From the NCBI GenBank assembly GCA_032358165.1, contig JAALGY010000017.1:434001-498000 (forward strand): a stretch of 64,000 bases of DNA, given 5' to 3'. The number at the start of each line of letters is the position of its first letter. The first letter of the stretch is position 1. This document shows, piece after piece, positions 4,922 to 58,028 of this stretch. Below the pieces are notes generated by a model, which saw nothing but the letters and a program-made list of their open reading frames with translations, did no database searches and was not told the origin of the DNA. Position numbers and translations under genes: made by a program. This DNA comes from Diplosphaera chodatii (taxonomy: Eukaryota > Chlorophyta > Trebouxiophyceae > Prasiolales > Stichococcaceae).

Positions 4922-7795
4922 TCACAGGAACGGCAGCAGGAAGTACTCTGAGTAGAACAGCGTCCAGATGCCCTTGTAGAACCCGGCGATCGCTGCCTTG
5001 CTGAAACCTTCTTTCTGTGCCACCTGCACGGCAGCGGCACGATCTTTCACGTACCGTGATCAAGATGTTGTGCACAAGCAGCAGGAGGCGCAGGCACGCC
5101 TGCGGGAATGCAACACAGCATTTGTAAATGTCATCCAAGTGTCTGAAGCACACCACAACCCACCCTGGTGGAGTGGTTCGCCAGCAGGGCCAGCGCCATG
5201 GCGAGCGCTGACCATGAGCGACACAGCAGGGTTCAGCGGGTGCATGCACGGGAGCCCACCCTGGTGTAGTGGATGGCCAGCAGGCCCAGCGCCGTGTGCG
5301 CGCCCACCATGAGCGGCACGTTGAAGGCGTGCGGCATGCGCCACGCCAGCACCCCCGCCCCGATGTAGTTGCACAGCAGCAGCGCCAGCGCTGCAGGGCA
5401 GGGCGCATGCACGTCAGCATGTGCCAGGCGCCGCAGCCACTCAAGCTCCTGCTTGCACGCTGAGGCACAACCCGCCTCCAGCGGACTTGCGCACCAGCAG
5501 CAACACCACACGCTGTGTGCTTCAACCACACTCCGAAACTGTTGGAGACGCATCATGCGGTGCCGTGGCTCACCCAGCAGCGCCAGGCGGTTGGCTCCCA
5601 GCTGCGTGGCGAACGTCTGGATGTTGAACTGGCGGTCGCCCGCGATGTCTGCCATGTCCTTCGTCAGCGCGATCACCGTGGCAAACACCGTCACGAACAC
5701 CGTGATGAATCTGCGAGGATCATTCAGGGCGTATCAGTGCTGAGCTGCGCATGTTTGGCACCCCAGCAGCCGCACCAGCTGTGCTGGCCATGTTGCGGCT
5801 GTGCAGCAGGATTGCTCGCAGCCATGGTCCCACTTCGACCACGAAGCCATGCAAGTCCTGAGCCACTGGCACGCACTGCTGACTGTCCGCTTGTGCATTC
5901 CTGCCAGAAATTGAATAGTCTGCACAGCGGCACTTCATTGAGGGGCTTCAAGGCAAGGGTGCCGAAGCCCACGGACGGCTTGTACCGAGTGGTGAAGCCC
6001 CCAACTCTGCGGGAATCAAGTTCAGCACATCTGAGGCGGGCGCACCCGATGGCGGGACTCCAGGAAAAAGTGTTGAGCCCGATGGCGGCGCGCGTGGCGT
6101 AGTACACCCCGAAGTTCAGCAGGAACCCCCGCACGGTGGCGATAATCATGAATGCGGGCACTGCAAATCGCTTCAGCCGGAAGGGCGGCACGCTGCAGCA
6201 AGAGACACGACACGAGCCAGGTCAGCGGAGCGAGTGAGACCCGCATCTCCGTGTCGCAATGCGCTGTGCCGCTGCCCATGTTCAGGCACCCTTTTGGTAA
6301 TACCCTCAGGGTATTGCCGCCGCTGCTGGCTCATGCTCCAGCAGGCAAGCTGCAGCGCTGCTGGCGCAGGGTGCTTTAACGCTCGTGTTGCCATGCGCCC
6401 CACCTGTAGATGGTCCCCAGCGTGAGGCCGAAGCTGTACAGGGCTGTGATGGTGCGTCCAAAGTTCAGGCCTGCGCAGGGACAAGCGCTGCTGAACACAA
6501 GTCCAAGCAACCGTGCTTTGCAGACCTCGGTGAGCACAAAACATCATACTAACATCCATCAGCTGTGGCTGGCAGTTCCAGCAGAACAGGGTTGCAGATC
6601 ATTAAAATTTTTGCTGGGACCGCAGCCGCAGCTGAGTGAGTGAGTGAGTGAGTGCGGGTCTTAATGTGACACAGCTCGACTACCCTGAACCCCGAAGCAG
6701 CGGGGTGCACTCACTGGTGATGGTGAAGCCGATGGCCGCCAGGCCGACCACCAGGACCCACGCCAGCGCCGGCGACAGCTCGCCTGCAGTCACAAGGGTC
6801 TAGGGTTTACGTGTGCAAAATTACCACTATTGCGGATGCGATGTTCTTACCCGAACCTCAAGCGCATGGCTGAGCATCGCCTGGGACGCGGTGTCTATGT
6901 GTCAGCTTCGGATCAGCGGCCGGCCTCACCAGCGGCGACCGGCAGGAAGGGCTTGTTGACGGCATCAATGTCCACGTCGTAGATCTGGTTGATGCCCACG
7001 ATGTAGCCGTTGCCCGCCAGCAGCGCGACCACCCCCAGCGCCGCGCGCGGCAGCAGTCCCCAGTCGATCAGCTGTGGGATTCAAAGTACATCACTACCAA
7101 ATGTGAGCAGACGCAGAAAGTTCTCTACGTTGAGCCGGTTCTGGCCAGGGCAGTAGTGATAAAGCGGCTCCAGCATGAGCCTGCAATATGCTGTGATCTT
7201 GTCACTGGTGTTGCCAGCATCGGTGGGTCTGAAGGGGCTTGAAGTGTTGGCAGCTTATGCCGCCATGTCTGCGGGCACTCACGTGCTGGTTCTCCAGCAG
7301 CGCCCGGGCTGTGACGGCGCTGGCGCCCAGGATGGTGCCCCGGATCGTGTGCGGCCGCAGGAACTTCCAGAACGCCGCCCGAAAGGCGTTCACCCGCTGC
7401 GACACCGACAGCTGCTCCCCGCCGGCCCCACCCTGCAGCGAGTGCAGAGGCCAGGTGGATCCACAGCGTGGGCTGTATTCATCGTCTCGCTGCGGTCTGG
7501 GCCTCGCTGATACGCCGTTTTAGCGGCGCAAGGCACCCTCGGCGCTGTGTACTCCGGATCACAGGTTCAGACATGTTCCGCGGCGGACCTCGAAGGCTGG
7601 GCTGGCTGCTGCCGACGCGCACGTCAGGGTCCCTGCCCGCTGCAGGCGCTGCCGGTGGTGCCGCTGCTGCTGGTGTGCACACCGCCGCTGTTCAGGTGCC
7701 TGAAATGGCCTCAGCCACGGCCTCTGCAGAAGCTGCCTGCCGAGCTGCGAAGCGGCCGCTGGCCGCTGCTGGGCCTGCAGCATGCCGGTATGCAT
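4922..7795 (-). CDS. HST: Homogentisate solanesyltransferase (plastoquinone-9 synthesis), UbiA family
   Basis: Predicted 383-residue plastid inner-envelope prenyltransferase that joins solanesyl diphosphate to homogentisate. Nine exons on the minus strand, in transcript order: 7795-7589, 7432-7283, 7071-6930, 6783-6715, 6470-6404, 6192-6046, 5710-5574, 5390-5260 and 5023-4922. All phases agree and the length matches plant HST. Exon 1 encodes an Arg/Gln/Ala-rich transit peptide ending near [13 protein letters not shown]. Diagnostic motifs are [10 protein letters not shown], the first Asp-rich motif NQIYDVDID (residues 147-155), [43 protein letters not shown], the second Asp-rich motif KDMADIAGD (about 278-286), and a C-terminus resembling YRFIWNLFYAEYLLFPF of plant [18 protein letters not shown] favours HST over the phytyltransferase of tocopherol synthesis. 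Alternative starts at 7783 or 7885 are possible. The last intron contains a degenerate copy of the preceding exon end. Confidence 0.88.
5159..5319 (-). repeat. Partial tandem duplication of an HST exon 3' end plus 5' splice site
   Basis: Bases 5159-5223 (inside the last HST intron) align with 5255-5319 (the end of exon 8, its GT donor and the first intron bases) at a 96-bp offset. I count roughly 11 mismatches plus a small indel over about 65 bp. In transcript order the copy follows the true donor and has its own intact GTGGG donor. Read in the corresponding frame it still resembles the helix it came from ([11 protein letters not shown] versus [11 protein letters not shown]). Confidence 0.85.
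6631..6653. repeat. (TGAG)n microsatellite in an HST intron
   Basis: About five and a half tandem TGAG units lie in the intron between HST exons at 6470 and 6715. It is a simple-sequence repeat with no visible function. Confidence 0.9.
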
Positions 7796-17462: not shown

Positions 17463-17706
17463 GAAGTTGCTGTGTAACATGGACCGACTGTCACGGATGA
17501 ATCCCTGCTCGGCCGATATTACATACAATGAATAGTGTACAGATGGTTTGTCTTCGGAATGCATCAATGATCTGACCAGACTGGAAGTTGCTGTGTATCA
17601 TGGACCGACTGTATGTCACGGATGAATCCCTGCTCGGCGATATTACATACAATGAATAGTGTACAGATGGTTTGTCTTCAGAATGCATCAATGATCTGAC
17701 CAGACT
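17463..17706. repeat. Two-copy tandem repeat, ~121 bp
   Basis: Unit 1 (17463-17583) and unit 2 (17584-17706) are nearly identical. Differences are a few substitutions, a 4-base TATG insertion and loss of one C. Each unit contains the pentamer TTACA, the minus-strand form of TGTAA, within GATATTACATACAATG. The repeat lies between two convergent genes. Confidence 0.92.
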
Positions 17707-18453
17707 GACGCGCAGCACTCGGTGTGAAGTGTCAGATGGCATGAAGCTGATATTTCCCTCAACAATCAACTCTACTCCCTCTCACTCTCATGATATTCGG
17801 AAAGCATTCCCACCCAGGCACACTCGAGTTCGTTAAGCCTTAGGAACAAACCGACACCCTGCACTTCAAGCGCTGTTATGTGTTCCGTACGGTCCCAAGT
17901 ACAGCTCGCCTCTGACACACGATGAATCAAAGTTCCAGAGGATATTGCATGGCTTGCCTGCTGACCACCTCATCCACAGCTCGTAATTCAGATATTCTTC
18001 ACATACCAGGCTGCACTCTATGTCATGATGTGCCGCCATGCTGGCTGGATCTTTGCTCTCACTGCAGCCGCGGCCGCCGCTGCAGCAGCCTCTCGCTGCA
18101 GCTCTCAGCTGCCAGTCGCTCTGCTGTGTCCTGATGGCTCCAGCACACGACACCGCGCGCCCCTTGCGCACGCCGACTGGCGCTCACAGTCTCGCGTGTC
18201 TGATGACACCGAAGGGAAGGGACACCGATGCCCGCTGCCGCTGGCATGCCCAGCGCCCAGGGTGCCTAGCTGACCCCCGGCCGTAGCTGCCATCGCTGAT
18301 GTCCCCTGATGGCCCGCTGACCCACAGCGCCAACCCCTGCCTGCCTCTTGCGCCCATCGCCCCGCTGACGCCGCCACATCGGCGGCGCACGGCGCCGGGC
18401 CGCTGCTGTCGGGGTCCCGGGACGGTGGGACTCTAGTGCCTCTCGGGGACTCT

Positions 18454-29058: not shown

Positions 29059-32000
29059 CTAGATTGCCACTGCCGGCGCGTCGGCCGGAGGCAGGTACAG
29101 CCCGCGGCTGCCCTCGCCGGCGAGGCACGCGAACAGGGCAGCCGCCGCCAGCAGCAGGGCCGCGTCCGCCGCCAGCGCCCAGCGGACGGTGCTAAAGTCC
29201 GCCAGCAGCCCCAGCATCGGCGGCCCAAACAGCATGCCTGCAGTTGCGCAACCTCCGCTCATCCACATGCTGACAGCAGGCTCTCGAAGGCCGGACTGCA
29301 GGGTGACAAGCTGCCCAAGCATTGGGGCTGAGCCTGTTGCTGAAGCAGCCCACCAGTCCAGCCCCGCAGCCAACGGCGGGAACAGCGTTCCACAGCATCG
29401 CTTCAGGGTTCAAGGGGCGCAGGCAGTGCCCCACCGAGGTCGCCGGCGCAGCGCAGCAGCCCGATGCCGACGCCGCGTGACGCCGGCGGCAGCACATCCA
29501 GGGCATACGCCACGAGCGCCGCCGACCGCAGCGCGTTGCCCACCCCGTACAGCGCAGCCGCGCAGTACAGCGCCGCCCGGCTGCCTGCGGGAGCAGGGTG
29601 CACAGCAGCGGCTCAGGATGTGCATGGGTGCTGCTGGGCGTCATGAGTGCTGAACTGAGACTGCTGCCCTCTCATCGCAGGTCAGGATGCACGAGACCAG
29701 GCTGCACATCGGAGGTGTGAGGGAGGGGCAGTGCCCTTGCTGAGAGTATTCATGCACACAGAAGGGAGGACAGCTGGAGGCAACCGGCATCCAGTTGCAT
29801 AGTCGTGCTTGGAGGCTGCTGCTTCTGTCACACCTGGAGCCTGCACACAGCGAGCATGGCGTGAGGCATCGCAGTGCATCATCGCCGCAGGTCGAGGAGA
29901 CTCACGGGCGGCGGCCATGGCAAGCATCGCGGCGGCCTCGGCGGCGAGACCCGGCAGGATGGCAGCCTTGCGGCTGAAGCGATCCGCCAGCGCCGCCGCC
30001 GGCAGCGTGCACAGCAGCGTCGCCAGCGCGCGCGCCCCGAACATCAGCCCTGTGGTGGCGGCGTGAAATATATGCACGGCGCTGGATGTTCGGTCCGTCA
30101 GGGCCATCTGGCTGGCCTGTGACCCCTCACGCACCTCAGCCGGACACAGCACAGATGCTGTACTTGACACCGCCCGTGCCGCGCACTGGGCCCGTCATGC
30201 CAGGCTTAGCATCAGGTCTGGGCGGCAAGGCGGCAGGACGGTGCGTACCTATGGAGCCGTGGTGCATGTGCCACTCCGCGCGCGCCAGCAGCGGCAGCAG
30301 CGTCGCCTTGCCGCCCTTCACCGTGGCCATGATCGCAATGTTGACCTGCGCGCACGGCTGGCGGGCTGCTCAGCACACCTCAGCAGAAGCGTAGGCCGAG
30401 CCGCGCTGCGTCATGGATGCACAGCTGGGCACAGCAAGCCCCACCTGCACCGCACGCAGCATCGCGCCTCTGCAGGCAGTAGGCGCACGAGTGCTCAGCT
30501 GTCCCGTCATGGCAGCCGCGCGACGACAGCCCGGGCACGATGCAGCAGCGCACCCACCAGCGCGAGGGCGCAGAAGTCCAGGCTGCCGAGGATGGCGAGC
30601 CAGCCGGCGGGCGGCCACCGCCGGTCCGGCTGCCGTCCCAGGCGGCGCCCCGCTGCGCTGCCGTCGGCGCCGTCCCACCCCGGAGCCACAGGGGCTCCCG
30701 CCGCATCTGCTGGCGGCTGCAGCCCAGGGGCTGACGCCGCCGCCGCTGACGTGTCTGCCTGCTGCTTGCTGCTGTCCGCCCACTGCCTGCTGCCGCCGCC
30801 GTTGTCTGGACCGTGCGTAGTGTCCCCCGCCAGCAGCGGCAGCAGCCTCGACCCAGAGTCCCGCCGCCCCTCGGGCGGGTGCTGCTCCGCCTGCCGCCAG
30901 CCGGCCCACTTGCGCCACCCCTGCCGCTGCCGCGGGCGCTGCTGAGCCTCGGCTGAGGCCCGGCCGCGGGCTGTCTCCGGCAGCGCAGATGCTGCGACGG
31001 CCGCCGCACACACCGCCGCTGCTGCCGACACGAAGAATGGCATCCTGCATGTCAAGACGAGACGCTGGTGCGGTAGCGTTGCACAGAATACAAGCAACTA
31101 CACAGCATCTGACTGCAAGCACAGAGTGGTGATGCATACACCGGCGTTCTTTTGGCTTGAGCAGAACCTGCAGAAGGCAAGGCGCAACGAGGAAGGGCAG
31201 GTCTACGGTGCAGTGTCGTGGAATGGTAAAACCCTCAAACCCCGAACCTGAGGCCGGCCACATCTGCGAGCGCGCCGCCCAGGGGCGGACCCAGCAGCGA
31301 CCCCAGGCGGGCCACCACCTGTGTGCGTTTGTCTCGGCAGATATCAGATCTGTCATTTTTGACATGTGAAGTCTGAGACAGAGGCCGCGATGGTGAGCGT
31401 CGTGCTCAAATCGGGAACACTGGACGCAACTGGAAACAACTGTTCAGACCATCCGTTCTGCTGGTCCTTACAGCGGCATCGACGCTGGACACATCAGCAT
31501 CCAAACCGATCTGGCTGCCATCGGGTGAGCGGGTCTGGGTGGCCCCAAGCCATGAGCACTCTGGAGTTCAGCATTCCAGACGCGCCTGGTCGGCGGCCAG
31601 GGTGCGGGCGCGGGAGGGTCTGAAATCTAGTCCACCCTGGAGTCAATGGAACTGGTAGTCTCCAGCGGCACCTGGTTGGCGGCCAGGGTGCGGGCGCGGG
31701 TGGCGGGTGCGCTGACGTCGGCCAGCGACAGCTCCAGCCCCGCCCACTCCCCCGCGGCGCCCGCCCCCTTCACCGCCCACGCCGCCACCAGCGCCGGGTA
31801 GCTGGGCGCCAGGCCGCCACCCACCTTGCCTGCCGGCGGGGCCAATGGTCTTCACACTGAGTAGTGGCCCTGGCAGGGGGGCGCTTTCTAGGTGCCGACT
31901 GAGCAGGCAACAAAACCCGAAAATTGCAGGGCTGTGCTATCCATAGACGCCTCCAAGTGGTGCGCAGTGGTGCAAGCCGGTGGCGCAAGCCAGCCGTGGC

Positions 32001-33683: not shown

Positions 33684-36600
33684 TTAGGTCCCAGTCAGCC
33701 CTGACGATCCTCCTGAGCTGGTTGCAGGTGCCGGCTCCTGATCTGATGCACCCGTGCCCGATGCCGGCGGCACAGCTTTCGCCGCAGGTCGATCTGCAGG
33801 CGCCTTGGCTGATGTCGTTGATGCGCCCGCCAGCATGCCCGACTGTGCTGCCCTTGCTACCACTGCTGCCGCCGCCAGCACCACGCCGCCCCCCGACATA
33901 TCCCTGGCCGCAGGCGACAACGTGCTGCCTGCCCACATAACGTGTGCAGCCGCGCCAGACGCCGAGGCTGCCAGCGGCGGCGGGTCTGCTGCCATCGGGG
34001 AGGCCATGTTGCTGGATGCGCCCACCGCTCGTGCGGCTGCATCAGACGCCGAGGCTGCTGGCAAGGGCGGCGCCGCCGCTGTTGCAGGAGAGGCCATGTT
34101 GCTGGACACATTTGGCCTGGTGCCGCCGGCAGCTGCATCAGACACTGAAGTTGCTGCCGGGGAGTTGGCGCCGCTGGCCTCCCCTGCAGCGCGCGCTTGC
34201 CGCCGTAGATGCAGCTGCCGGATCTGCTGCTCCTCGCACTCGTCCAGCTGCAGGCGCCAGAACATCGGATGATAGTGCATAGAGTCCAACCAAGGCAAGC
34301 TGATGTGACAACAGTGACAGCAATCGCAAGGCTACAATATCACCGAGCTACCGCGGGCGGACTGGCGGTGCAGCCTGCAGTAGCATCGACTAGTCGCTGC
34401 CTTGCAACCGTGTGGCATCCCAACGCATGCACATGCAGTACCGATAGCCTGTGCTCTTACAAAAGTAGCAGGAGTAGCACTGGCGTTGTCATGAATGCGA
34501 CTGCCTCATGCCCAATGGTCTGCGTGGAACGCAGCAACATGATCCGAGCAGCAACATGCACATGGGATTGCAGCAGGAAGCGGCACCTCCTTCTGCAGTG
34601 CCGCCCCGTGCGTCACCGCCGCCGCAAGCTCCGCCTGCAGAGCCGCCGCCCGCGCCTGTCCAGTCTGCGCATGCAGAGCGCCACGGTTTCGACCAGGTGC
34701 ACTGATCACAGTCCAGGTTGCAGCTCCATCAGCCATGAGCTCTCCCAATAATATAGTAATCTCACAGGTGTAGTCATGAACCTGAAGCATCTGTCACATG
34801 CAATGTGGCCAACGTACACAGCTTGACGTCATGCGCACCTCTGCAGCAGGGGCAGCAGCGGCGGCCGTGCCCTGCGCCGCTGCCACAATGCTCGCTCCGG
34901 CCGCCGCTTCCAGCTGCCGTCGAACAACCTCCTGCTGCCGCTTGGCCGCTTCCAGCTGCGCCTGGGCGGCGTCGGCACGGGCACTTTGGGCTGCCGCCTC
35001 AGCGCAGAGCTCTGTGATCCGCGCAGCGTTGTCACGACACCTGCACAGCATGATTGCAGACTGCTGAGGTTTCTGTCCTGACTGACGCCAGCTCAGAAAA
35101 CGACTCATCAAGTGCTGCAGTGGTGAGCTAGGCGTGACCTGAGGCTCGAGGGCTATGCAAGTTCTCGGCCGCACAGCAGCAACAGAAATGGGATCCCAGT
35201 GGCATCCTGCAAGAGGGCTTCAGCACTGGCTGCAGAAATTGGACCCATAAACCCTGAAACTCACTGGCCGCCCTGGACATCCATCGTCGCCCGGCACTGC
35301 GCCAGCATGCCCTCCAGCGCCTTCGCATACTTCGCCTTGCACTCCAGCTGCATGTTGGGGAGGTGCCAACACTATAAGAAAAGGGGTCCAAAGCTCTCAA
35401 GCATAGACTTCAAAGTAACACAGAAACGCAGGTTTGTGCAAGGGAAATTGGATGACAGTTTGGTGGACGGAGACACTAGAGGACTGGATGAGCATTTGCA
35501 ACAGGTGGGACCAAAGCAAGCGGCCGCGCACTGAGTGCTGATACACCCTGCAAACCCCTGCAACTTGCAGTGCAGGCCCTGGCGGCATTTGCGCCTGAGG
35601 CCCACCTGCTCCAGGGCATCCGCCTTGGCGTATTCGGCCGCCTCCAGGCGTGCGGCGAGAGCGTTCGGCAGCACGGCAGCCGCCGCCGCAGGGGACCTGG
35701 CCCGCTGCTCCGACTGCGCTGCCGCCGCCAGCCGCTGCAGGCCGGTCTGCTGCCGCGGCGACTGCTGCTGCTGCTGCTGGTTGGCCCTGGCATCTGCTTC
35801 CGCCGCAAGCTTGCGGGCTGCGGCCGCAGCCACGGCTTCATCGTGCGCCTTCTGCTCAGCCGCCGCCACCGTTGCCCGTGCCTAACCACATTGGACTGGC
35901 AGAGTCAGCAACCACCAGATATGTATGGGAGCATAGATTGCATGCCTGGGCAGGCAGCTCAAACGGTCCGCAGCCAGGACACAAGTGGGCAGCTCGCAAG
36001 CCACAAGCAGGCTGCAGAAGGCAGGCGCAAAGATATCACGGGCAAAGCTTGGCGGCTGCGCACCTCGCGCTGCGCGGCGGAAGCGGCCGCTTCTGCTGCT
36101 TCCAGCTTCCGCTGAGCGGCGTCCGCCGCCGCCTCCGCCTCGAAGCGGGCCGCCTCGGATTGCAGCTTTGCCTGCCGCGCCGCCTCCTGCGCCGCACAGG
36201 CACACCCACTGATCATGCCATTGCAATCACATCATGGCCTGATGGACCGTTCTATGTGCTCCAATTGCGACGTGATGGCTACCTTTCCTGCTGAATCGGC
36301 AGCCTGCACGGCTGCTGACAGTGCAGTGGAGACACCTCATGTCATCAGAGTGCAACCTCACAGCATCGTGCAGTGGCGACCAGACCGGCACCATGCTACT
36401 ACACTCAACTGGCAGCTTGGGACTGCCAAGCATGGCATACAACATGCCAGCAGGGTCATCAAACTGCAGGCCATATGAGATCTGTTGACTGCAGGGCACA
36501 GCGTGGGACTGTGGCTGTGTCGCAAATCCTAAATCGCCTCACCAGCTGCGGCACACTGTGCATTGTGGCTGTTTTGTAAACCCTAAATCGCCTCACCAGC

Positions 36601-39600
36601 CGCAGCACACTGTGCATTGTGGCTGTTTTGTAAACCCTGAGTCGCCTCACCAGCTGCGACCGAAGGGCGGCCGCCTCCGAGGCGCTGTCCCGCGCCGCCG
36701 CGGCCTCATGCTCGGCGGCCGCCAGCGCGCCGGACTGCGACGCTTCCGCGGCCGCCAGCCGCTCCCTGAGGCCCGCCGCCTCGCCCCGGAGCCGGCCCGC
36801 GGCGGCGCTGGACGCCCTGCCGGCCGCCGCGGCCTGCACCGCACCAGAGTGTCAGAATGCTCACGCCTCCGCTGCGGAGAGAGCCTGCTGCGGGGCGAGT
36901 GGCCTTGCTGCCATCGTTGCCGCTGCAGCGCGGCAGCCGCCGTGCCGCTGCCAGCCTGGCCAGTGACACACAGGTCAGCTAGGTGTACCGCTCGTGCTTG
37001 TGGGGACCTGTTTCGCACCTCGTCCCGTTGCCGTGCCAGCTCAGCGGCCCGCGCCTCGCCCTGCGACCTGGCCTCCGCGACCGCCCTCGCGACCGCGGCC
37101 GCCTGCCGCGCATCAGCCGCAGCCCCCCAGCGCTGCTTGACAGTGGCCACGGTCCGGGCGGCTCCGGCCTGCCACCGTTCTACCGCCGCAGCGACTGCAG
37201 CAGCCTGCCGCTCGTCGGCTGTGGCCTGCCACTCCTGCTTCGCCGCCGCCAGTGCCGCCGCTTGTGCAGCGGCGTGCCGCTCATCAGCTGCAATCTGCCA
37301 CTCCTGCTTCGCCGCCGCCACTGCCGCAGCTTCCGCAGCGGCCTGCCGCTCGTCGGCTGCAGCCTGCCACTCCTGCTTTGCGGCTGCTAGCGCCGTAGCA
37401 ACTGCAGCAGCCTGCCGCTCATCAGCTGCAGCCTGCCACTTGCGCTTCGCCGATGCCACAGCTTTTGCAGATACAGGAGCCTGCTGCGCATCGGCAGCCG
37501 CCTGCCACTCATGCTGCGCCTTCGCCACCGCCGCGGCAACCGCAAAGGCGCGGCGCTCATCAGTCGCCGCCTCCCACTGCCATCTGGCAGAAGCCACCGC
37601 CTCAGCAGCCGCAGCAGCCTGCTGTTTCTGTGATGTGGCCTGCCACTCCTGCTTCGCAGCTGTGACCGCCTCAGCAGCCGCAGCAGCCTGCTGTTTCTGT
37701 GATGTGGCCTGCCACTCCTGCTTCGCAGCTGTGACCGCCTCAGCAGCCGCAGCAGCCTGCTGTTTCTGTGATGTGGCCTGCCACTCCTGCTTCGCAGCTG
37801 TGACCGCCTCAGCAGCCGCAGCAGCCTGCTGTTTTTGTGATGAGGCCTCCCACTCCTGCTTCGCCACTGCCACAGCTGCAGCAACTGCCCCACTCTGTCG
37901 CTCATCAGCAGCAGCTTGCCACTCCTGCTTCGCCGCCGCCACCGCCGCAGCAGCTGCATCAGCCTGCGCCGCAGCGGCTGCAGGCTTCCACTCTGCCTTC
38001 GCCCAAGCCAGCGCCTCGGCCTTTGCTGCCACGACTGCAGCGCTCTGTCGCTCATGTGCTGCGGCATTGCACGCGGCCTTGGCAGTCGCCACTGCTGCAA
38101 TGACTGCAGCAGCCTGGCGCTGTTCAGCCGCTGCGTTGCACTTCCGCTCGGTGGCCGCCACTGCTGCTTCCTGCTGCCGCTTGGCTGCTTCCAGCTGCAT
38201 GGTGGCGTCTGCAGTGGCGGCCGCGACGGCGGCCATCTGCCGCTCCTGGGCAGCAGCGGCTGTCTGTTCTGCTTCAGCCACGGCGGCGGCAGTGGCGGCG
38301 CCCTGCTGCCGCTGCAGCTCGACAACAGCCCGCCGCTGCTGCAGGGCCTGCGCCTCGGCTGCTTCCTGCTTGCCTGCCGCTGCTGCTGCAGCGTCGCGCG
38401 CCGTGTCGCGCTGCGCCTCTGCCTCAGCTTGCGCTGCCTGTGCTGCATCCCGCTGCCGCTCCGCTTCCGCCGCGATGTCGCTGCACTCGGCGGTGGCCGC
38501 TAAGCCCTGCTCCCGCACGGCGGCCGCCTCCCGCTCCAGGGCATCCGCCCGCCGCACCGCCGCCGCCTGCGCCGCCTCTGCACTGCGCTGCCGCTGCCAG
38601 GCCCTGTCCGCTTCCGCGGCCGCGTTCCGCGCCCGCTGCACAGCGCTGACAGAGGCGGTCTGCGCCTCCGCCGCCGCCTTCGTCTGCTTCCGGGCGTCCG
38701 CCTCTGCCGCTTCCCGCTTCCCGGCCGCCTCCGCCAGCGCCGCCCTGAGCCCGTCGGCGGCGAGCAGGCGCTTCCGGGCGTCCGCCTCGGCCGCCTCCTG
38801 CTTCCCGGTCGCCTCCGCGAGCTGCGCTCTGAGCTTGTCACCCAGTGTGCGCTGTGTGGAAGCCTCGGCCTCGGCTGCCTTCTGCTTGCGGGCGGCCTCG
38901 GCGAGCGCCACCCCCAGTCGGGGCGCCGCCTGCCGCTGCTGCTCCTCCCGTGCCGCCAGCGCCTCGACAGCTTCCTGCAGTTTGCACTCATGCGTCTTGA
39001 CATGCAAATTCTGCTGTGCAAGGAGCACTAGGTGTATGTCATGCACGTGGGCCAGCTGTATGACTTCAAGCAGGTTCACAAGGAAATCTGTAGCCGCATC
39101 CACCTGCTGTCGTCAACAGCGAGCTCGTCGCTCAGCTGCTGCTGACAGTCATTGTGCACGGCTACAGTCTGTTCATTGACATGCACAGCCCCCACTGGAC
39201 TGCTGGTGCCAAGTGCAGTGTGACACAACACCATTCGGGCGGCCTCGGCTTTGTCTCGCTCCGAGCGCGCCGCCGAGACCGCCGCCACCTGCGCCTCCGC
39301 CTGCCGCCGCGCATCCGCGGCCCCCGCTTCCAGCTGCCGCCTGGTCTCCGCAGCGGCTGCCTGCGCGCCAGCAAGCGCGGCGGCCTGCGCCGCCGCCGCC
39401 GCCGCCGCCTGCTGCTGGGCTGCGGCGTGCGCCGCCTGCAGCCGCTGCCGCTCGGCAGAGTCCTGTGCCGCGTCCACTTCCAGGCGCTGCCTGACGTCTG
39501 CGGCGGCCGCAACTGCGGTCGCATGCTCCGCTTCAACCGCTTCCAGCTGCTGCTGGGCTTTCTCAGCGTCCGCCTGCGCCGCCGACAGCGCAGCGCTGTG

Positions 39601-42120
39601 CTCCATGGAAGCGGCCTGCAGCTGCTGCTCGGCCTCGGTCCTGGCCGCCTGCGCCGCTGTCAGCACAGCAGCATGCTCTGCAGCAGCTGCTTCCAGCTGC
39701 CGCTGAGCTTCCGTGGCAGCCGTCTGCGACTCCGCAAGCGCAGCAGTCTGCTCTGCAGCATCTGCTTCCCTCTGCCGCTGGGCTTCCGTGGCGGCTGCCT
39801 GTGCTTCTGCAAGCGCAGATGCATGCTCCGCAGCAGCCGCTTCCAGCTGCTGCTCGGCTTTTGTCCTGCCTGTCTGTGTCGCTGCTAACGCAGACGCATG
39901 CTCCGCTGCTTGTGCCTCCCGCTGCTGCTGGGCTTCTGAAGCGGCTGCCAGTGCTGAGGTGTGCTGCTCGGCACCCGCTTCCCGCTGCCGCTGTGCTTCC
40001 GCAGCATCTGCCTGAGCTGCCGCGAGTGCAGCAGCATGCTGTGTGGCAGCCGCTTCCAGCTGCTGCCTGGCCTCAGCGGCGTCTGCCTTGATGGCCTCTG
40101 CCTGCCCCATAGCCTCAGCTGCTGCAGCGGCCGCTGCCTCCCGCTGCCGAGTTGCCTGGCGTGCATGGCACACAACGTCCCGCACGCATGACGTCAGCAG
40201 GCGCATAAGCTCAATTAGAGGGACAACCATGAAATCAGGCGCCGGCGGGTCACATGGCTGTCCGTCTAGCGCCAAACCATAGCTGGGCCAAAGCCCTTCA
40301 GCCGTGCTCAACCCCCTTACTGCAAAGCGTTATCACGTCATCACTGCAGCCTGGCCGTGCCACCAGCTGGAAGGGCGTCGACGCCGTACCTCGCTGCAGG
40401 CGGCCCGCGCAGCAGCTGCCTCTGCGCGCGACCGCACCATCGCCGCCCGCGACGTCGCCGCCTCGGCCAGGGCCGCCTCAAGCTCGGCGGCCACCTCAGC
40501 GGCGCGCGCCGCGGCCTCAGCATCGTACTGCATGAATATGAACACTGGGGGGCTTCATGGTTGTCAGCTGGTGTATGGCAGGTGTGTGCCCGAGTCAAGA
40601 CATTGGGGTGCGCAGCCTCGGCACAGCGGCTGCGGCCAGAGCCACACTGAGAACAGGCTGCCTCTGCCGGAGTGTAGAGCGGCCACCTGCGCCGCAGCGT
40701 TGGGGTCCCGCGGGCGGGCCTCAGCTTCGTGCAGCCGCCGCTGCAGCTCCTGCTGCGCGATTGCTGCTTCCTGCTGCCGCTGCTCCGCCTGCTGCCGCGC
40801 AGCCGCGAGCTCTGCCCGCAGCGCCTCCTCTGCTTCCTGCTGCCGTGCCGCCAGCTCAGCGAGCGCTGCGTCATGCGCCGCCACAGCATCGCTGCCGGCG
40901 GCCGCGGGCTGGCCGCGCTGAGCGTGAGCCTGACCGCCGCGCGCTGCGCTGACCTGCCGCTGCAGGGCCTCCAGGGCCGCGCGGGCCTCATCACGCTGCC
41001 GCAGCGCTTCCTGCTTCCCGGCGAGCCGCTCCGCCGACTGAAGGCACAACGTCACAAAAGGTGTGAACTTTCACTGACTGCTTACTGCTGTCTGTGCAAC
41101 CCTTGACGGCAGTCTGATCTGGCCACTTAAGTATGGTGCCAACCTCACTGCATTTGGTGGCACAGACTGCGTTCTGCAAGCTGGACATGTGGGGACCCAC
41201 CTCTGCGGCACGGCGCTGCATCTTGCGCTGCAGCAGCGCGGACCAGCCGCGCTCCCACGCCACCTTGCGCTCGTACCTCGCCTGCACCCCAGCTGCCCGT
41301 CCGTCAGTCACCAAACCCTTCTGTCTCCTCTTCCGTTGTTCTTTGGTGGGCTCCGTTCTTTGTGCGCTGCTTCGGACATCTGATGCCAGGAGCAGCACAC
41401 ACGATGTGTGGTTTGTGTCTCCCCGAGGCAAGGGCATGCGTCTTTGCAGCTTCGCATGTTTTGTAAACCCTAAATAGCAGGCAGCAGACCCTGCGGCGCA
41501 CCTGCAGCTGCATGAAGTCGCGGCCCATCTCGTCGTGCCGCGTCGCCGCCCCCGCCAGGAAGTCGTCGGTGTCCTCATCCTGACATGGCAGCAGTACGGC
41601 CGTGGGCATCATGAGAAGTCGGTGTAATCCCTGTGGACCACCCTGCCGGATGTGGAGCGTCTGCTGGCACCCAGGCAGCCTTGCTGCCGCACAACCAGCC
41701 CGCTCACCAGCAACGAGGGCAACCTGCATGATTGGTTGTCACGCTGTACCCAGCGAACGTCACTCCTCTGCAACTGCCTCCTATAGAGAGGGCTTGTGGC
41801 TAGGGTTTTCGCACGCACCAGCCTTTGGCGAATGTCACCGGCGCGGTCGGCATCCACCCGCATTCAGCGTTTGGGGTGGCATTAAGGATTTAAAGCCTCA
41901 CCAGCTCCTGGCGGATGGCGCCGACGTGGTCGGGGTCCACCCGCATTCAACAGTTAGGGTGGCATTTAGGGTTTAGGGGCCTCACCAGCTCCTGGCGGAT
42001 GGCGCCGACGTGGTCGGGGTCCACCCGCAGCTCGGGCCCCGGCTCCGCGGCCCGCAGCACATCCTGCGCCCGGTCGAAGGCCGCTTCCGCTGCTTCCGCT
42101 TCCTCCGCTTCCGGCACTGC
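33684..42120 (-). CDS. Large Ala/Gln/Glu-rich coiled-coil protein with 23- and 25-residue repeats
   Basis: About 1,740 residues in minus-strand exons, in transcript order: 42120-41986, 41579-41502, 41281-41201, 41037-40687, 40527-40390, 40143-39232, 38974-37019 (652 codons in one exon), 36833-36651, 36186-36064, 35881-35606, 35347-35265, 35040-34839, about 34760 to 34587, and 34247-33684 (stop TAA). Phases agree throughout; the acceptor of the 34587 exon is uncertain. Early segments are VRQ/acidic (FDRAQDVL, DEDTDDFLAGAATRHDEMG), then long helices such as QREADAAEQTAALAE. One exon carries a 23-residue tandem repeat with an invariant Trp (KQEWQA). The tail is low complexity (SNMASPATAAAPPLP twice, diverged). 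No catalytic domain is seen; a filament or scaffold role is inferred. It may be the C-terminal half of the gene at 42273-49340, because a putative 20-base exon at 42251-42232 would connect them in frame. Confidence 0.7.
36535..36650 (-). repeat. 54-bp tandem copies of an exon end, donor and telomere-like motif
   Basis: The sequence CGCCTCACCAGC starts at 36535, 36589 and 36643, a strict 54-bp period. The last copy is the genuine exon 3' end (exon low end 36651) with its GTGAGG donor; the other two lie in the downstream intron. Each unit also has TTTTGTAAACCCT followed by AAAT or GAGT. In transcript orientation this reads as a TTTAGGG-like sequence just after each donor. Confidence 0.92.
37224..38052 (-). 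repeat. 69-bp in-frame tandem array encoding a 23-residue Trp repeat
   Basis: Units start at 37224, 37293, 37362, 37431, 37500, 37569, 37638, 37707, 37776, 37845, 37914 and 37983: twelve units with an exact 69-bp register. Units at 37638 and 37707 are identical and 37776 differs at two bases; the rest are diverged. Each encodes 23 residues of the pattern KQEWQATSQKQQAAAAAEA plus a linker, with the Trp at a fixed place. The array sits inside one 652-codon exon. Confidence 0.93.
39232..40143 (-). repeat. 25-residue coiled-coil repeat exon
   Basis: This 304-codon exon repeats the pattern AATEAQRQLEAAAAEHA followed by a variable LxxAQA linker at about 25-residue (75-bp) spacing, for at least five recognisable units, some with 24 or 28 residues. 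Twenty-five equals 7+7+11, which fits a coiled coil with one hendecad stutter per unit. DNA identity is lower than in the 69-bp array, so it is probably older. Confidence 0.75.
41813..42035 (-). repeat. 84-bp tandem copies of an exon end, donor and (TTTAGGG)n motif
   Basis: Fifty bases at 41896-41945 repeat 41980-42029 without a mismatch, 84 bp apart. The right-hand copy is the end of the exon whose last base is 41986 plus its donor; the left-hand copy is in the downstream intron. A third, diverged copy lies at about 41813-41866. Between copies is CATTTAGGGTTTAGGGG (41964-41980), two telomere-type units. Even the diverged copy still translates to a similar peptide (RVDADRAGDIRQRL versus RVDPDHVGAIRQEL). 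Confidence 0.95.
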
Positions 42121-42272
42121 CTGCAGGCCTGGCCACACGCAAGCACGCAGACATTTGTGTCTCCAGCCATTATTTGCGGGATGCATCGGAATGTACTGCA
42201 AGGCATGCCTCCGCAGGCTGGCAGCACCCACACGGTGTGGCCGTGGCGCTGCTGACTGGCGACGCAATGTGT

Positions 42273-53400: not shown

Positions 53401-56400
53401 ATATGGCCATTGTTCATCTGCAGCACCATCAGGACGGAGTGATAGAGTCCCACGGCATCCTGTACACAAAGATGTGTTGCTGGCAAGTGCTCTGTCACAT
53501 CAAAGCAGCTGGTGGATGACAGACCGCATATATCTGCTATCAGGACTAGACGTGCAGACGCTTCTGCAAACTTTTGCAGGATGAAGACGGCGATGGGGAC
53601 GGCGTGCCGCCCGCGGATGATGTGATGTCAGCCTCGGGGGTGCGCAGCCGCTACGAAAAGCTGTTCCGCGAGCGGCAGGCCGCCGCTGCGGTGGGTATTC
53701 CAGAACAACCCTGTGCACAAGCGGGCTCATTAGTGTCATGTAGTCAGGCACCTCGCGATGTGGGCACCACAATGCTTTCATGGACTGAAAATGCATCTGA
53801 AAGGCATTTGTTTCCGTCTGGATATGCGTTGAACTGAGATGGGGCTGTCGATGCAGGCGCAGCAGGACGATGGCGACGGGGGCCCAGGGGCGGAGGCGCC
53901 GGGCGCGGGGGCGGTGCCCGTGCGCACCCCCTTCCAGGGCGCCATCTCCACCGTCTTCACCAAGCATCTCTCGTGAGCGCTGCCGCTCATTCTGTGCATT
54001 TTCTACACCCAGTGCACATTGGCAGTGGACCTCGCTCCCCCTGCGTCAGGCATAACAGTCACACCATGCCTGTGCACGCTGCAAATTGTGGAGGCATGTA
54101 GTGCAGCGTCAGCTGAACCGCTCCTGCAGCCTGCGGTGCTTTCGCGCCACATCCCGAACGATCTCATGTTCGCGTCATCGTTGGTGCTGTGGTCTTAAAA
54201 CCCTGAGGTGGCATCGGCGCAGGTACTATGTGGAGGCCCAGGAGCGGGAGCTGCTGGGGACCCTAGACGCGCTTGTGGGCGAGGAGTCCTGGCGCCCCGC
54301 GGACGAGTCGGCGGGGGCGGGGGTGCTGCGGTCGGCGTCCCAGCTGTTTGGCGAAATCAAAAAGTCGCTGGTGCGGTGCAGCAAGTACATCACCCGCGGC
54401 CCCGCGCTGCTTCAGCTGATGACCACCTTCCAGGTAAGCATCTGCATGTGCCTGTCTGCAGCAACAGGACAGGGGTGGAGATGGGTCCCTCCGGGGTAGG
54501 TCCAGGGTGTGAGGGTGGCGTCTGTGATATGTTTTAAGGTTTAGAAACCCGCAGCCCATCCGGTGTGCTGCTGCCTCTGCCAATGGCCAGGACACGAAGC
54601 GAAGGCTGCCACAGCGAACCCTGACGCACAGTTCTGTCGATGGTCAGCTGTGGCCTGCGACTTTGAGTTGCGCCGACATTTGATGACCGCTGACACCCAA
54701 TGCCCAGCTCTGCCAGGAATGCCCTCCTGTCCACAGCTCCTGTTGCTTGTTCAGCTCGTACTATTCAGCTCGTAATGTGCGCTGTCCCCAGGCAGCTCGC
54801 AGGGGGGGTGTCCACATGAGCAGTGCAGTTGCATTGCTATCTCTGCCAGGAATTGGACTTAGATGGGGGTGTCAGCACCGAGCGCTGTACTGCTGCAGAG
54901 GGTCGCCAGAGCATACACTGCACGGCTGATGACACGGCTGCCGCGCACGGCGTCTGGAGCTGCTGCGGGCGCCACGCCCAGCCTGGCCACCCAGGAGTGG
55001 CATGTGCGGCTGGCCGACGGCGATGTGTGAGTCCCCTGCTCCCCATCAATTGCTCACTATTGTAACGCTCTCACAGGCACACGTGCATGCACGCTGCTTG
55101 TGGCCATATTTATGGCTGGCGGCTGGCATGTCGTTCTCGTTTTTGTGCTCCACCGGCTGCGCAGCCAGTCTGTGCTGCAGGGGCATCTCTTCGCTCTGCT
55201 GCACGGATGATGTGAGCAGCCTGTGCACATCCATAACAGCCTTCACTCAATGTCCTGGGCCTCATGCGTTTACCTCACAGCACATGCCAGCAGGGTTCGA
55301 GGGCTGTTGTGCTCTGCACAGGGGCGCCTGCTGCGCGGTCGTCACCACCGCCGAGTACTGCACCGAGGTCATCGGCGCCCTGGCCCGCAATGTGGCCAAG
55401 CTGCTGGACCCGCCCCTCGGAGACGAGGTGTGTCCGTCTGGCTGCGCATCCAACATCTTTCCCCACCCACCGAGTTTCATACTCTCGCTGTATGTGGTTT
55501 CGGCCTCACGCTGACGCTGCAAGTGCCCGGTTCTTGTAAGAGGTCCATGCATGCGCTGCCAGCCGCTGCTCTTCTTGCGGGGGCCCATGGCACGGTCGCA
55601 ACACTCAGTGACTCGATTAGGCTGACATGCCCGAACCCTCGTATCCTGGGCGCTGGGTGCAGGTGGATGTTTCAGAGGAGGAGGAGGGCTTTGCAAGCGT
55701 GACGACCGCGGCGCTCAATACCCTGCTGCTGGGCCTGGAGACTCGGCTGGATGCGTGCCTGGGGTCGTTGATGCGCTACAACTGGGCGGCCACCGAGTCG
55801 GTGAGCTTAGTGCTTGCTCATCACACCACGCTTGTCCTATGCCAGGCTTCTGGTATGCACGGCAGACTGGTCTGGATTGCAGGTGACATGTTGGACATGA
55901 TCCGCTAGGGCAGTGGGACAGTTACTGCAGACATGTGGACCTCGCTGCACTTGGGGCAACCATACCGACTGGCAGTTTCTACAGTCCCTGTCCCTCTGTC
56001 TTGCAGGTGGGGGACCAGTCGGACTTTGTCACGGCGATGGGGCGCACGCTGCAGGAGTTTGGGCCGCCGCTGGGGGCCGCGCTGCCGGAGCACCACTTCG
56101 CCTTCCTGTGCGACAAGGTACCCCAGAGGCACATCTGCTGCTGCCTTGTGCCCGTCCTGCACAGGCTGGGCGGTCATTCTGCTGTCGTTGTGATGGAGGT
56201 TGGCAAACCATATGCCTGGTAATCGCTCGCGTTACCACTGTCAGCAGTCGTCTGGGGGCCACATGGCTGCAGCAGCCACACAGAGCGGCAGACCCACCTC
56301 TCAGCATTTGCACTTGCTCAAAAGCGCACAGCCACTCAATTACAGATCCAACCTTGTGCTCTTGCTGCCACGCTCACATGTGACCTCTAGTCGACGTGCA

Positions 56401-58028
56401 CCTGTGTCGCCGCAGCTGGCGTCCAGCTTCCCGCGCCGCTTCGGCGAGGCGGTGTCGCGGTGTCGCAAGATCGGCGAGGCTGGCAGCCAGCAGCTGCTAC
56501 TGGACACCCACGCCGTGCGCAGCCTGCTGCTGGGCTTTCCCGCCTCAGGTGACCAGACCTTCTGTCCCTGGTATCGTGCAGTACTACATGCTTAGTCTGG
56601 CAATAGTCCAAAAATGCAATATGCCCGGTACAGTAAGGAAGCGTTGCAGAGACCCAATCCACGTCCAAGGGAAGTCCTGCAGTGGTCACCAGCCATTCTG
56701 GCATGAGTGTTCCATACATGGTGTGCTACAGGGCGGCCAGGCGAGCCCGCGCCGGCGATGTTCAAGGCAGCCGTCACCAGGGAGCTGGGCAGAGTCGAGG
56801 CGCTGCTGAAGGTGACATGGATTTATGTTCAGGGCAACTCTTCCGGCGTCTGGCCAGGACGTGGCCGAGCATCTGGGGCCAGCACAGCGGCCTTTGTATG
56901 CAGGAATGTGTAACGTCTGGATGGCTGACCGCTTCCGCCTAAACCCTTGGCGGTATGCAGGTGGTGGGCTCACGGCCAGACACGCTCCTGCACAACTTCG
57001 CGACGCTGCTGCCTGGCGCGAACGCTTCCGACTTCCAGCGCATCGTGGAGCTCAAGGTGGCCTGCACCGCCCTGTTTCGATGCAACATGACGCCAAGCCA
57101 GGCTCATGAGGCCGCCCCGATGATGCCAGGCTTCAGCTTCTGCACCGACTTGCGCCAAGTCTGTACTCCTGGTTACAACGCATCAGCCAGAGATTGCCTT
57201 TGGCAGTAATGGTCACACATCCCTCCTCGTGATTTCCTCTCTCCCTATGGTGCAGGTGCTGAAGAAAGTGGAGGCGTCGGCGCTGCTGGAGGCGTACAAC
57301 CGGCGCATCGGGCGGGCCGGGCAGCCCACCGCTGCCGGCGGGACGCTGCTCGCAGGTTGGCTGTTGTCTGCCCACTGACGCCATGTTGGGCAGAGCCTTC
57401 CAATCCAGACACCAAGTTTCCACGATGTAGAAGTAAGTGATCATGTGTCAAGTTAACACACTGCCATTCTGCACACTCAGGCAACACAGCAGCCGGGGAC
57501 GGTCGCAGTGGCGGCGGCGCCGCAGGGGGCCCGGGGCTGCTGCCCCGGCTCGCTACAGGCGGCCCCACAGCGGGCGCGCCCTTTGCCAACAGCCCCGCCT
57601 CGGCGGCAGCAGCAGCCAGGGTGCAGGCCTCTACACAGGTGGGTAGTTGGTGCTGATGTGACACGCACACAAGGTCGTGTGGTTTCACGTGTAAACGCCC
57701 CACCCGGGCCTGGTCTTGTGCATCCTTAGCCGCTCCCCATCCAGCGAAGCAGGGACAGTTGGCAGCGTGGTCGTCTCCACCTCTACCTCGTCACTATCCG
57801 CTCAGCAACCGGTGTTTCGTTACCGCGTCAATGCGTGCTCTCTGTGCCCAGGAGCTGGCATCGCGCTTCCGCAGCAACGCCAACACGGCGGCGCAGCGGG
57901 CGCAGGCGGCGGCGGGCACCGCCACCGACCGCATGCGCGAGTCCTTCGCCTCCATGCGCATGCTGAGCTTCGGCATGGGGCGCGAGCGGCAGCAGGACGG
58001 CAGCAGGAAGCAGCAGGGCCGGCGGTGA
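50486..58028 (+). CDS. VPS53: VPS53, subunit of the GARP/EARP tethering complex
   Basis: Predicted 927-residue tether subunit for endosome-to-Golgi retrograde transport, working with VPS51, 52 and 54. 22 phase-consistent exons: 50486-50660, 50818-50935, 51141-51237, 51425-51524, 51728-51885, 52092-52205, 52570-52716, 52959-53060, 53229-53336, 53580-53690, 53857-53972, 54223-54433, 54899-55026, 55322-55427, 55663-55800, 56007-56117, 56416-56548, 56732-56811, 56961-57056, 57256-57355, 57481-57638, 57852-58028. The VPS53 N-terminal domain is clear: FDAVKFLNEMFPT, LITTLRAKIRRVD, EICRDIRKLDHAKSNLT, NEYGEAAHLIEAV, AIFGTTGDTAALERTDRRY, WGIFPPEWHLPQL. Later parts keep VVTTAEYCTEVIGALA and the helical-rod region. 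The intron 53061-53228 starts with GC. The C-terminal ~110 residues (from LLAGNTAAG on) are low complexity and ungrouped. Other than Gly/Ala insertions the length fits the family. Confidence 0.92.
51010..51046. repeat. CAG trinucleotide run in a VPS53 intron
   Basis: About eleven CAG units interrupted once by TAG, inside the intron 50936-51140, so it is not translated. It is polymorphism-prone simple sequence. Confidence 0.88.

Follow-up and report, generated by a model that had tools for sequence, protein, structure and literature searches.

The window, a stretch of 64,000 nucleotides (C15:434001-498000 in a genome of 85.6 Mb and 55 contigs), was analysed with a gene model that was self-trained on the sample sequence and predicted 684 introns, with the consensus CAG/GTGCGC at the donor and TGCAG/G at the acceptor (the slash marks the splice border). 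Among the named matches of one protein of the window, Artemisia annua (58% identity, 60% of the query covered) and Parachlorella kessleri (67%, 90% covered) ranked best, and green algae were frequent among the other named matches (120 listed of 1392). Together with the TTTAGGG telomere, these matches point to a green alga, probably a trebouxiophyte.

On the minus strand, an exon with a duplicated 3' end (...ELRVDPDHVGAIRQEL; 41986..42128) was placed by the gene model, its translation and the same exon end on contig C47. It terminates in ...CGCCAGGAGCTG, directly followed by a GTGAGG donor, and the intron behind it (41580..41985) has its counterpart at the equal position on C47. The duplicated unit comprises about 44 last exon bases and the donor, 51 bases altogether, so that both copies include the exon-intron junction. 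Copy 1 (41979..42029) has the functional place, and copy 2 (41895..41945), at a lag of 84, is identical to it at 51 of 51 bases. Copy 3 (41813..41862) is clearly decayed, carries a donor-like GTGCGT followed by AAAACCCTA and matches the inner copy on C47. TRF described the array with a period of 83, 2.4 copies and a score of 296. These data bear out the initial annotation, which had reported a perfect copy of exon end and GTGAGG donor 84 bp further on and a diverged third copy; the position of the donor agrees with the intron of the self-trained model. It had also placed telomere units between the copies, and this holds for copies 1 and 2, where a telomere-like tract (41965..41978, minus strand; CCCTAAACCCTAAA in the sense direction, TTTAGGGTTTAGGG on the other strand) starts 7 nt into the intron and is confined to the gap. 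The gap between copies 2 and 3 has only ATTAAGGATTTAAAG at the equivalent place, a decayed form of TTTAGGGTTTAGGG. This 14-mer occurs once in the window and was found in none of 100 shuffles. Copy 2 begins about 21 nt past the tract and not directly at it.

Although exon end and donor are the same in copies 1 and 2, the intron parts of the two copies differ by 8 changes in 33 aligned positions and one gap, which points to conversion between the copies or to a younger exchange confined to the exon part. Behind the innermost, old donor there is already AAAACCCTA, and judged from the sequence the telomere-like DNA of this array may therefore be older than the duplication. As a sequence, the ladder of competing donors that had been proposed does exist, but a read-through from donor 1 would meet a stop codon before donor 2 is reached, whereas the array at 36.5 kb is predicted to stay open. 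A search of the array DNA against the genome matched only the array itself and its block copy on C47.

Three further introns had been listed as alike, and all of them (5024-5259, 31319-31671 and 36187-36650) were indeed found. The telomere motif ascribed to them is present as clear units in 36187-36650 and as a decayed unit in 31319-31671, but 5024-5259 has merely AACCCT. The second array (36510..36671, minus strand) has three units of 54 bp that consist of the exon-end GCTG, GTGAGGCG and TTTAGGGTTTAC-like DNA; its counterpart on C47 has a single donor. It is open in frame, and every donor step would add 18 codons. The in-frame read (36537-36692) gives VRRLRVYKTATMHSVLRL / VRRFRVYKTATMHSVPQL, and a longer protein would be possible if the inner donors were used. 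In the third array (31575..31700, minus strand), there are two copies at a lag of 86 with the decayed filler CTAGATTTCAG, whereas the counterpart on C47 has three copies with CTAGGGTTTCTAGGG and CAGGGTTTAGAG, and there the telomere unit is clear. The fourth array (5159..5293, minus strand) has two copies at a lag of 96 and lies in a homogentisate prenyltransferase-like gene. A further example was found in locus L053 on contig C33, where an exon end, a GTGGGTG donor and AAACCCTAAA are arranged in four exon-end copies 109 bp apart; since it was noticed through three identical motif matches in a row, it demonstrates recurrence and not frequency. The 16-mer TTTAGGGTTTACAAAA has only two occurrences in the genome, at 36572-36587 and 41459-41474, in introns of one gene model that are 5 kb apart, and it looks as if one filler had been the template for the other.

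The age of the arrays can be judged from a colinear block of about 30 kb that the window (27645-57641) shares with C47:2375001-2405000 and whose aligned pieces are about 72-97% identical. Exons are conserved in this block and introns have diverged, which might reflect two related subgenomes or a large duplication of old date. Three arrays lie inside the block, and two of them are common to both block copies, which argues that they are old and not assembly errors. The related locus on C47 (L002/L020) has two copies at a lag of 85 with CCCTAAA behind the first donor. The inner copies correspond between the blocks; apparently, the first duplication predates the duplication of the block and the window gained a further copy. 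The 36187 array is present in the window copy of the block only. Of the block's 58 introns in the window, 38 could be paired by our rule with an intron at the equal place on C47, and the remainder are without a partner. Because the host introns are paired on C47 while the two copies are unlike in their tracts and in one array, the change apparently took place within existing introns, and the arrays look younger than their host introns. Birth of introns by telomere insertion or duplication was considered and is rejected for the three block arrays, whose host introns have partners on C47; the pairing covers these three, the 5024 array being outside the block.

Single telomere-like tracts are also found in the block. 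One of them (TTTAGGGTTTA in the sense direction; 41464..41474, minus strand) lies 27 nt from a donor, opposite an 18-nt gap in the weakly aligned C47 counterpart, a second one (AGGGTTTA in the sense direction; 35248..35255, minus strand) lies 9 nt from a donor and is kept in both block copies, and a third one (CCTAAACCCT; 56938..56947, plus strand) lies 13 nt from an acceptor. Tracts at 41282 and 55801 are present in one block copy only according to weak intron alignments that scored below the best of 300 shuffles (27.0 against a shuffle maximum of 27.6 at 41282, and 22.6 against 26.8 at 55801).

How common such copies are was addressed with a self-copy scan of 525 predicted introns of 80-1500 bp. 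Introns at the edges of loci were excluded, those of the first 4 kb of locus L003 were removed since they overlap with the window, and the 36.5-kb intron, which the model had split in two, was joined by hand. Donor-spanning copies were found in 5 of the 525 introns: the four of the window (5024-5259, 31319-31671, 36187-36650 and 41580-41985) and L020:5896-6218, which is the C47 counterpart of one of them. In L021, the counterpart of 31319, the model had picked another donor and the match was not scored as spanning. Acceptor-spanning copies were found in 2 of 525, both in L008 and one with TTTAGGG. At a score of at least 13 there were 7 introns with donor-side self-matches, 5 of them spanning the junction (1.25 when other introns were the targets), and 4 with acceptor-side self-matches, 2 of them spanning (0.25 with other introns). 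The comparison of donor with acceptor copies, which the initial annotation had named as a refuting test, stands at 5 versus 2 among the 525 introns, too few to speak for or against an excess. Donor-side arrays concentrate in the window and its duplicate block, and at a score of 13 none was present in about 166 kb outside of these.

The suggestion that the arrays are a recurrent mutational or splicing feature of the genome therefore needs to be modified. A mutational feature tied to telomere-like DNA does recur, but donor-spanning copies are few (5 of 525), and the presence of a telomere tract at an intron end is the stronger regularity. The terminal repeat of the organism is TTTAGGG, as seen in the array at the end of contig C7, and the same unit is present at internal sites of the genome, as expected for interstitial telomeric sequences made of the organism's own unit. 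From 30 loci of the 14-mer TTTAGGGTTTAGGG, 13 distinct interstitial ones were kept (16 belonged to the C7 terminal array and one was a second register). These were chosen by the 14-mer alone, and all 13 fall in predicted introns. Twelve are at most 40 nt away from an intron end, where uniform placement in the same introns predicts 5.0 (p 3e-5), and ten lie on the donor side (2.5 expected; p 1e-5), five of these ten in CCCTAAA sense.

The donor-side preference was also seen by pattern counts over the whole genome, which include overlapping registers and a few matches in terminal arrays. The telomere 10-mer has 1097 matches, terminal arrays included. The donor-like GTGMG stood upstream of it 200 times as compared with 112 in the mirror control (pooled p 4e-7), a control that is impure since it also catches donor copies behind the tract and acceptors followed by GTGMG. 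Within 25 nt the counts were 123 versus 51 for TTTAGGGTTT, the TTTAGGG sense, and 77 versus 61 for AAACCCTAAA, the CCCTAAA sense, the latter not significant (p 0.10). With the 14-mer in TTTAGGG sense the counts were 32 versus 15 (p 0.009). A cross-match by hand of 45 interstitial 14-mer tracts on C1-C14 gave GTGMG upstream on 21 of 90 sides, compared with 6 of 90 in the mirror (p 0.003) and with a base rate of 7.1% (p 4e-6); clusters at the end of the lists of C7, C12 and C14 were left out as arrays, C7 being the one confirmed contig end. On the acceptor side the pattern gave 60 versus 45, a test that is unusable because the mirror catches donors after TGCAG.

A composition-matched control leads in the same direction. 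Telomere-type 8-mers occur at 33 sites of the sample, 26 of them intronic and 7 outside predicted introns. Near an intron end were 18 of the 26, as compared with 131 of 314 sites of 19 other arrangements of the same letters (p 0.004); on the donor side it was 10 of 26 versus 67 of 314 (p 0.035) and on the acceptor side 8 versus 64 of the 314. Taken individually, one control set exceeds the near-end fraction of the telomere words (3 of 4 sites), one almost equals it (13 of 19) and one nearly equals the donor fraction (3 of 8). A list assembled by hand from the 13 14-mer loci and 22 of the 33 sample rows has 30 of 35 sites near an intron end, 21 on the donor and 9 on the acceptor side (expected 13.9, 7.0 and 6.9). 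It omits the 7 rows that fall outside introns of the model and 4 intronic ones (three second or later copies in arrays, and L003:6955, an interior site), and with the latter four restored the count is 30 or 31 of 39; the count made by rule is the composition-matched one (18 of 26). Compared with intron interiors, the donor zones of 510 introns are 6.7-fold enriched in AGGGTTT and the acceptor zones 3.7-fold in AAACCCT. AGGGTTT ranks second among the donor-zone 7-mers (p 3e-4), which would fail a correction for all words. In an exploratory comparison of 30 hand-listed sites, the distance of the tract into the intron fell with rising exon length (Spearman -0.47, p 0.008), which is a hint of a role of chromatin and no more.

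Tight flanking direct repeats of 7, 9 and 14 bp were found at 3 of 47 tracts, against 0.07 expected, and were absent at the other 44. In the clearest case, L003:6715, GGGTTTAGGGTTTT stands between the two copies of a 14-bp repeat located at the donor; a staggered break that was filled in and received telomeric filler would be expected to give rise to such repeats. Flanking direct repeats were rejected as a mark that holds for the tracts in general: 2 of the 13 14-mer loci had them at a score of at least 9. Over all sites it was 11 of 44, some of the 11 being array members, compared with rates of 6.6% for flank pairs that were mismatched and 7.1% for places picked at random in introns.

Arrays and tracts may be scars of the repair of DNA breaks at exon-intron borders, with filler made by telomerase and subsequent duplication, a reading to which we give an even chance. 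A break or a pair of nicks near an exon border would leave 3' ends, to which telomerase could add TTTAGGG units, between one and three of them. The site would then be closed as the overhang is filled in and the ends are joined, sometimes with a duplication of the overhang, which would leave the exon end and donor on either side of telomere-like filler. Unequal exchange or slippage could multiply the short repeat (to 3 x 84, 3 x 54 or four copies at 109 bp), and the exon part could be held uniform by conversion between the copies. The gene would survive since the first donor stays intact and the rest would be removed as intron. In favour of this reading are the terminal TTTAGGG repeat, the clustering of tracts at intron ends, the three tight flanking repeats, the tracts and the array present in one block copy only, and the array of equal layout on C33. 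Against it are the 44 tracts that lack a tight repeat, the telomere-like DNA at 41.9 kb that may be older than the duplication, the non-significant count in CCCTAAA sense, the weak alignments at 41282 and 55801, the self-trained exon models, the lack of donor-side arrays at the given score in about 166 kb elsewhere and the 7 of 33 sample sites outside predicted introns. Selection against damage to exons would purge insertions there, yet it should spare the interiors of introns, and by itself does not yield the clustering at the ends; open or nicked DNA at exon edges or the edges of exon-sized nucleosomes could account for the preference.

Selection for splicing signals is a different explanation: splicing would be aided by TTTAGGG-like G triplets that follow the donor and by CTAAAC-like words ahead of the acceptor, telomere-like words would be retained and the tandem copies would be incidental. 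The enrichment of AGGGTTT in donor zones (6.7x) and of AAACCCT in acceptor zones (3.7x) would be expected from it, and at intron 35041 TTTCAGGGTTTA was retained in both block copies while much else diverged. The orientation bias on the donor side (123 versus 51 in TTTAGGG sense, 77 versus 61 in CCCTAAA sense) also fits such a role, a point against the repair of breaks. However, a G triplet does not require exact repeats of two or three units, other arrangements of the same letters have, as a group, no such excess, five of the ten 14-mer tracts on the donor side have the CCCTAAA sense, and the block copies differ in the tracts at 41282 and 55801, albeit in weak alignments. Altogether, we consider this explanation rather unlikely. 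Slightly less probable still is ordinary tandem duplication, in which slippage or unequal exchange copied a border unit and the telomere-like words were not causal. The repeated unit does include the telomere-like stretch, the intron parts of the copies are related and the innermost old copy already bears AAAACCCTA, but tracts cluster at intron ends also where there is no visible duplication, and three of them lie tightly between direct repeats.

That the arrays are functional alternative donors which tune the gene, by adding a stop at 41.9 kb or 18 codons per step at 36.5 kb, would agree with copy 2 having retained every base of exon and donor while 8 of 33 intron positions changed and a gap arose, and with the open frame at 36.5 kb. 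Conservation extends over the whole exon part and not the donor alone, which looks like conversion between copies, and copy 3 has decayed; such a role is very improbable on the sequences at hand. Tandem repeats are commonly misassembled, but two of the arrays recur in the C47 block, each with its own differences, and the copies differ in their intron parts, so that we regard an artefact as next to negligible.

Related phenomena are known from other systems. In mammals, interstitial telomeric sequences were inserted during the repair of double-strand breaks (PMC2246262), and the likeness is in the short internal tracts with deletion of the target, filler or, in a minority, duplication (4.6% in rodents, 16% in primates). 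A preference for splice borders is unmentioned in the parts of that report considered here, whereas the algal tracts examined sit at intron ends, some with multi-copy duplications of the border. Plant telo boxes (AAACCCTA) are likewise single telomere units within genes, for which the authors propose that telomerase acts at free 3' ends arising with transcription (PMC3022908). They are most abundant in 5' UTRs, and introns as a whole show no enrichment (150.7 per Mb versus 155.2 genome-wide in Arabidopsis), and "splic" is absent from the text of that report as available, whereas here the 13 14-mer loci are in predicted introns. CST and Pol alpha-primase, a machinery that also fills in telomere ends, produce small tandem duplications at 3' overhangs (PMC8355091); those are induced breaks in mouse and human cells, and telomeric filler is unmentioned in the parts of the report considered. 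It is from these three reports together that we infer one mechanism, a combination which is our own. In the potato RdRp gene a tandem duplication over the first intron and second exon crosses an intron-exon border as well and gave a new intron (PMC4974935, as far as its text was available), whereas in the arrays described here it is introns already present that became longer, at their donor border. Introners (PMC9860276, in the parts considered) are similar in that intron change is recurrent and linked to insertion, but here no shared family of intron sequences was found and the telomere unit alone recurs. A shared introner-like element was rejected, given that the array DNA matches only itself and its block copy and that TTTAGGGTTTACAAAA occurs twice in the genome. 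Among the titles and opening lines of abstracts listed from the open-licence literature, no report of telomere tracts at splice borders was found.

More generally, it is tempting to speculate that in this lineage telomerase and telomere-type fill-in regularly act at breaks which favour exon-intron edges, and that telomere DNA and border duplications thereby keep supplying extra splice donors and lengthening introns, with the position of the break possibly tracking exon-sized nucleosomes; we put this forward tentatively, as rather doubtful. If true, exon borders would be a preferred target of telomerase-assisted break repair, and the telomere enzyme would be tied to changes in gene structure and to a datable source of alternative splice sites. 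The duplicated blocks would then be a built-in comparison for asking why exon borders change by duplication.

Some other features of the region should be mentioned. Two introns of L020 (C47:2394110-2394409 and 2394564-2394755) are absent from the window copy of a coiled-coil gene (around 38437-38592); the stretches inspected by eye have no telomere tract and no evident direct repeat, and two neighbouring absences would fit loss through cDNA. Separate from the intron arrays is a 124-bp tandem duplication at 17463-17707, which is A+T-rich for the window. Coding repeats of 69 and 75 bp are present at 37185-38003 and 39521-39936 in an alanine-rich coiled-coil protein, and some of the 69-bp units are identical.
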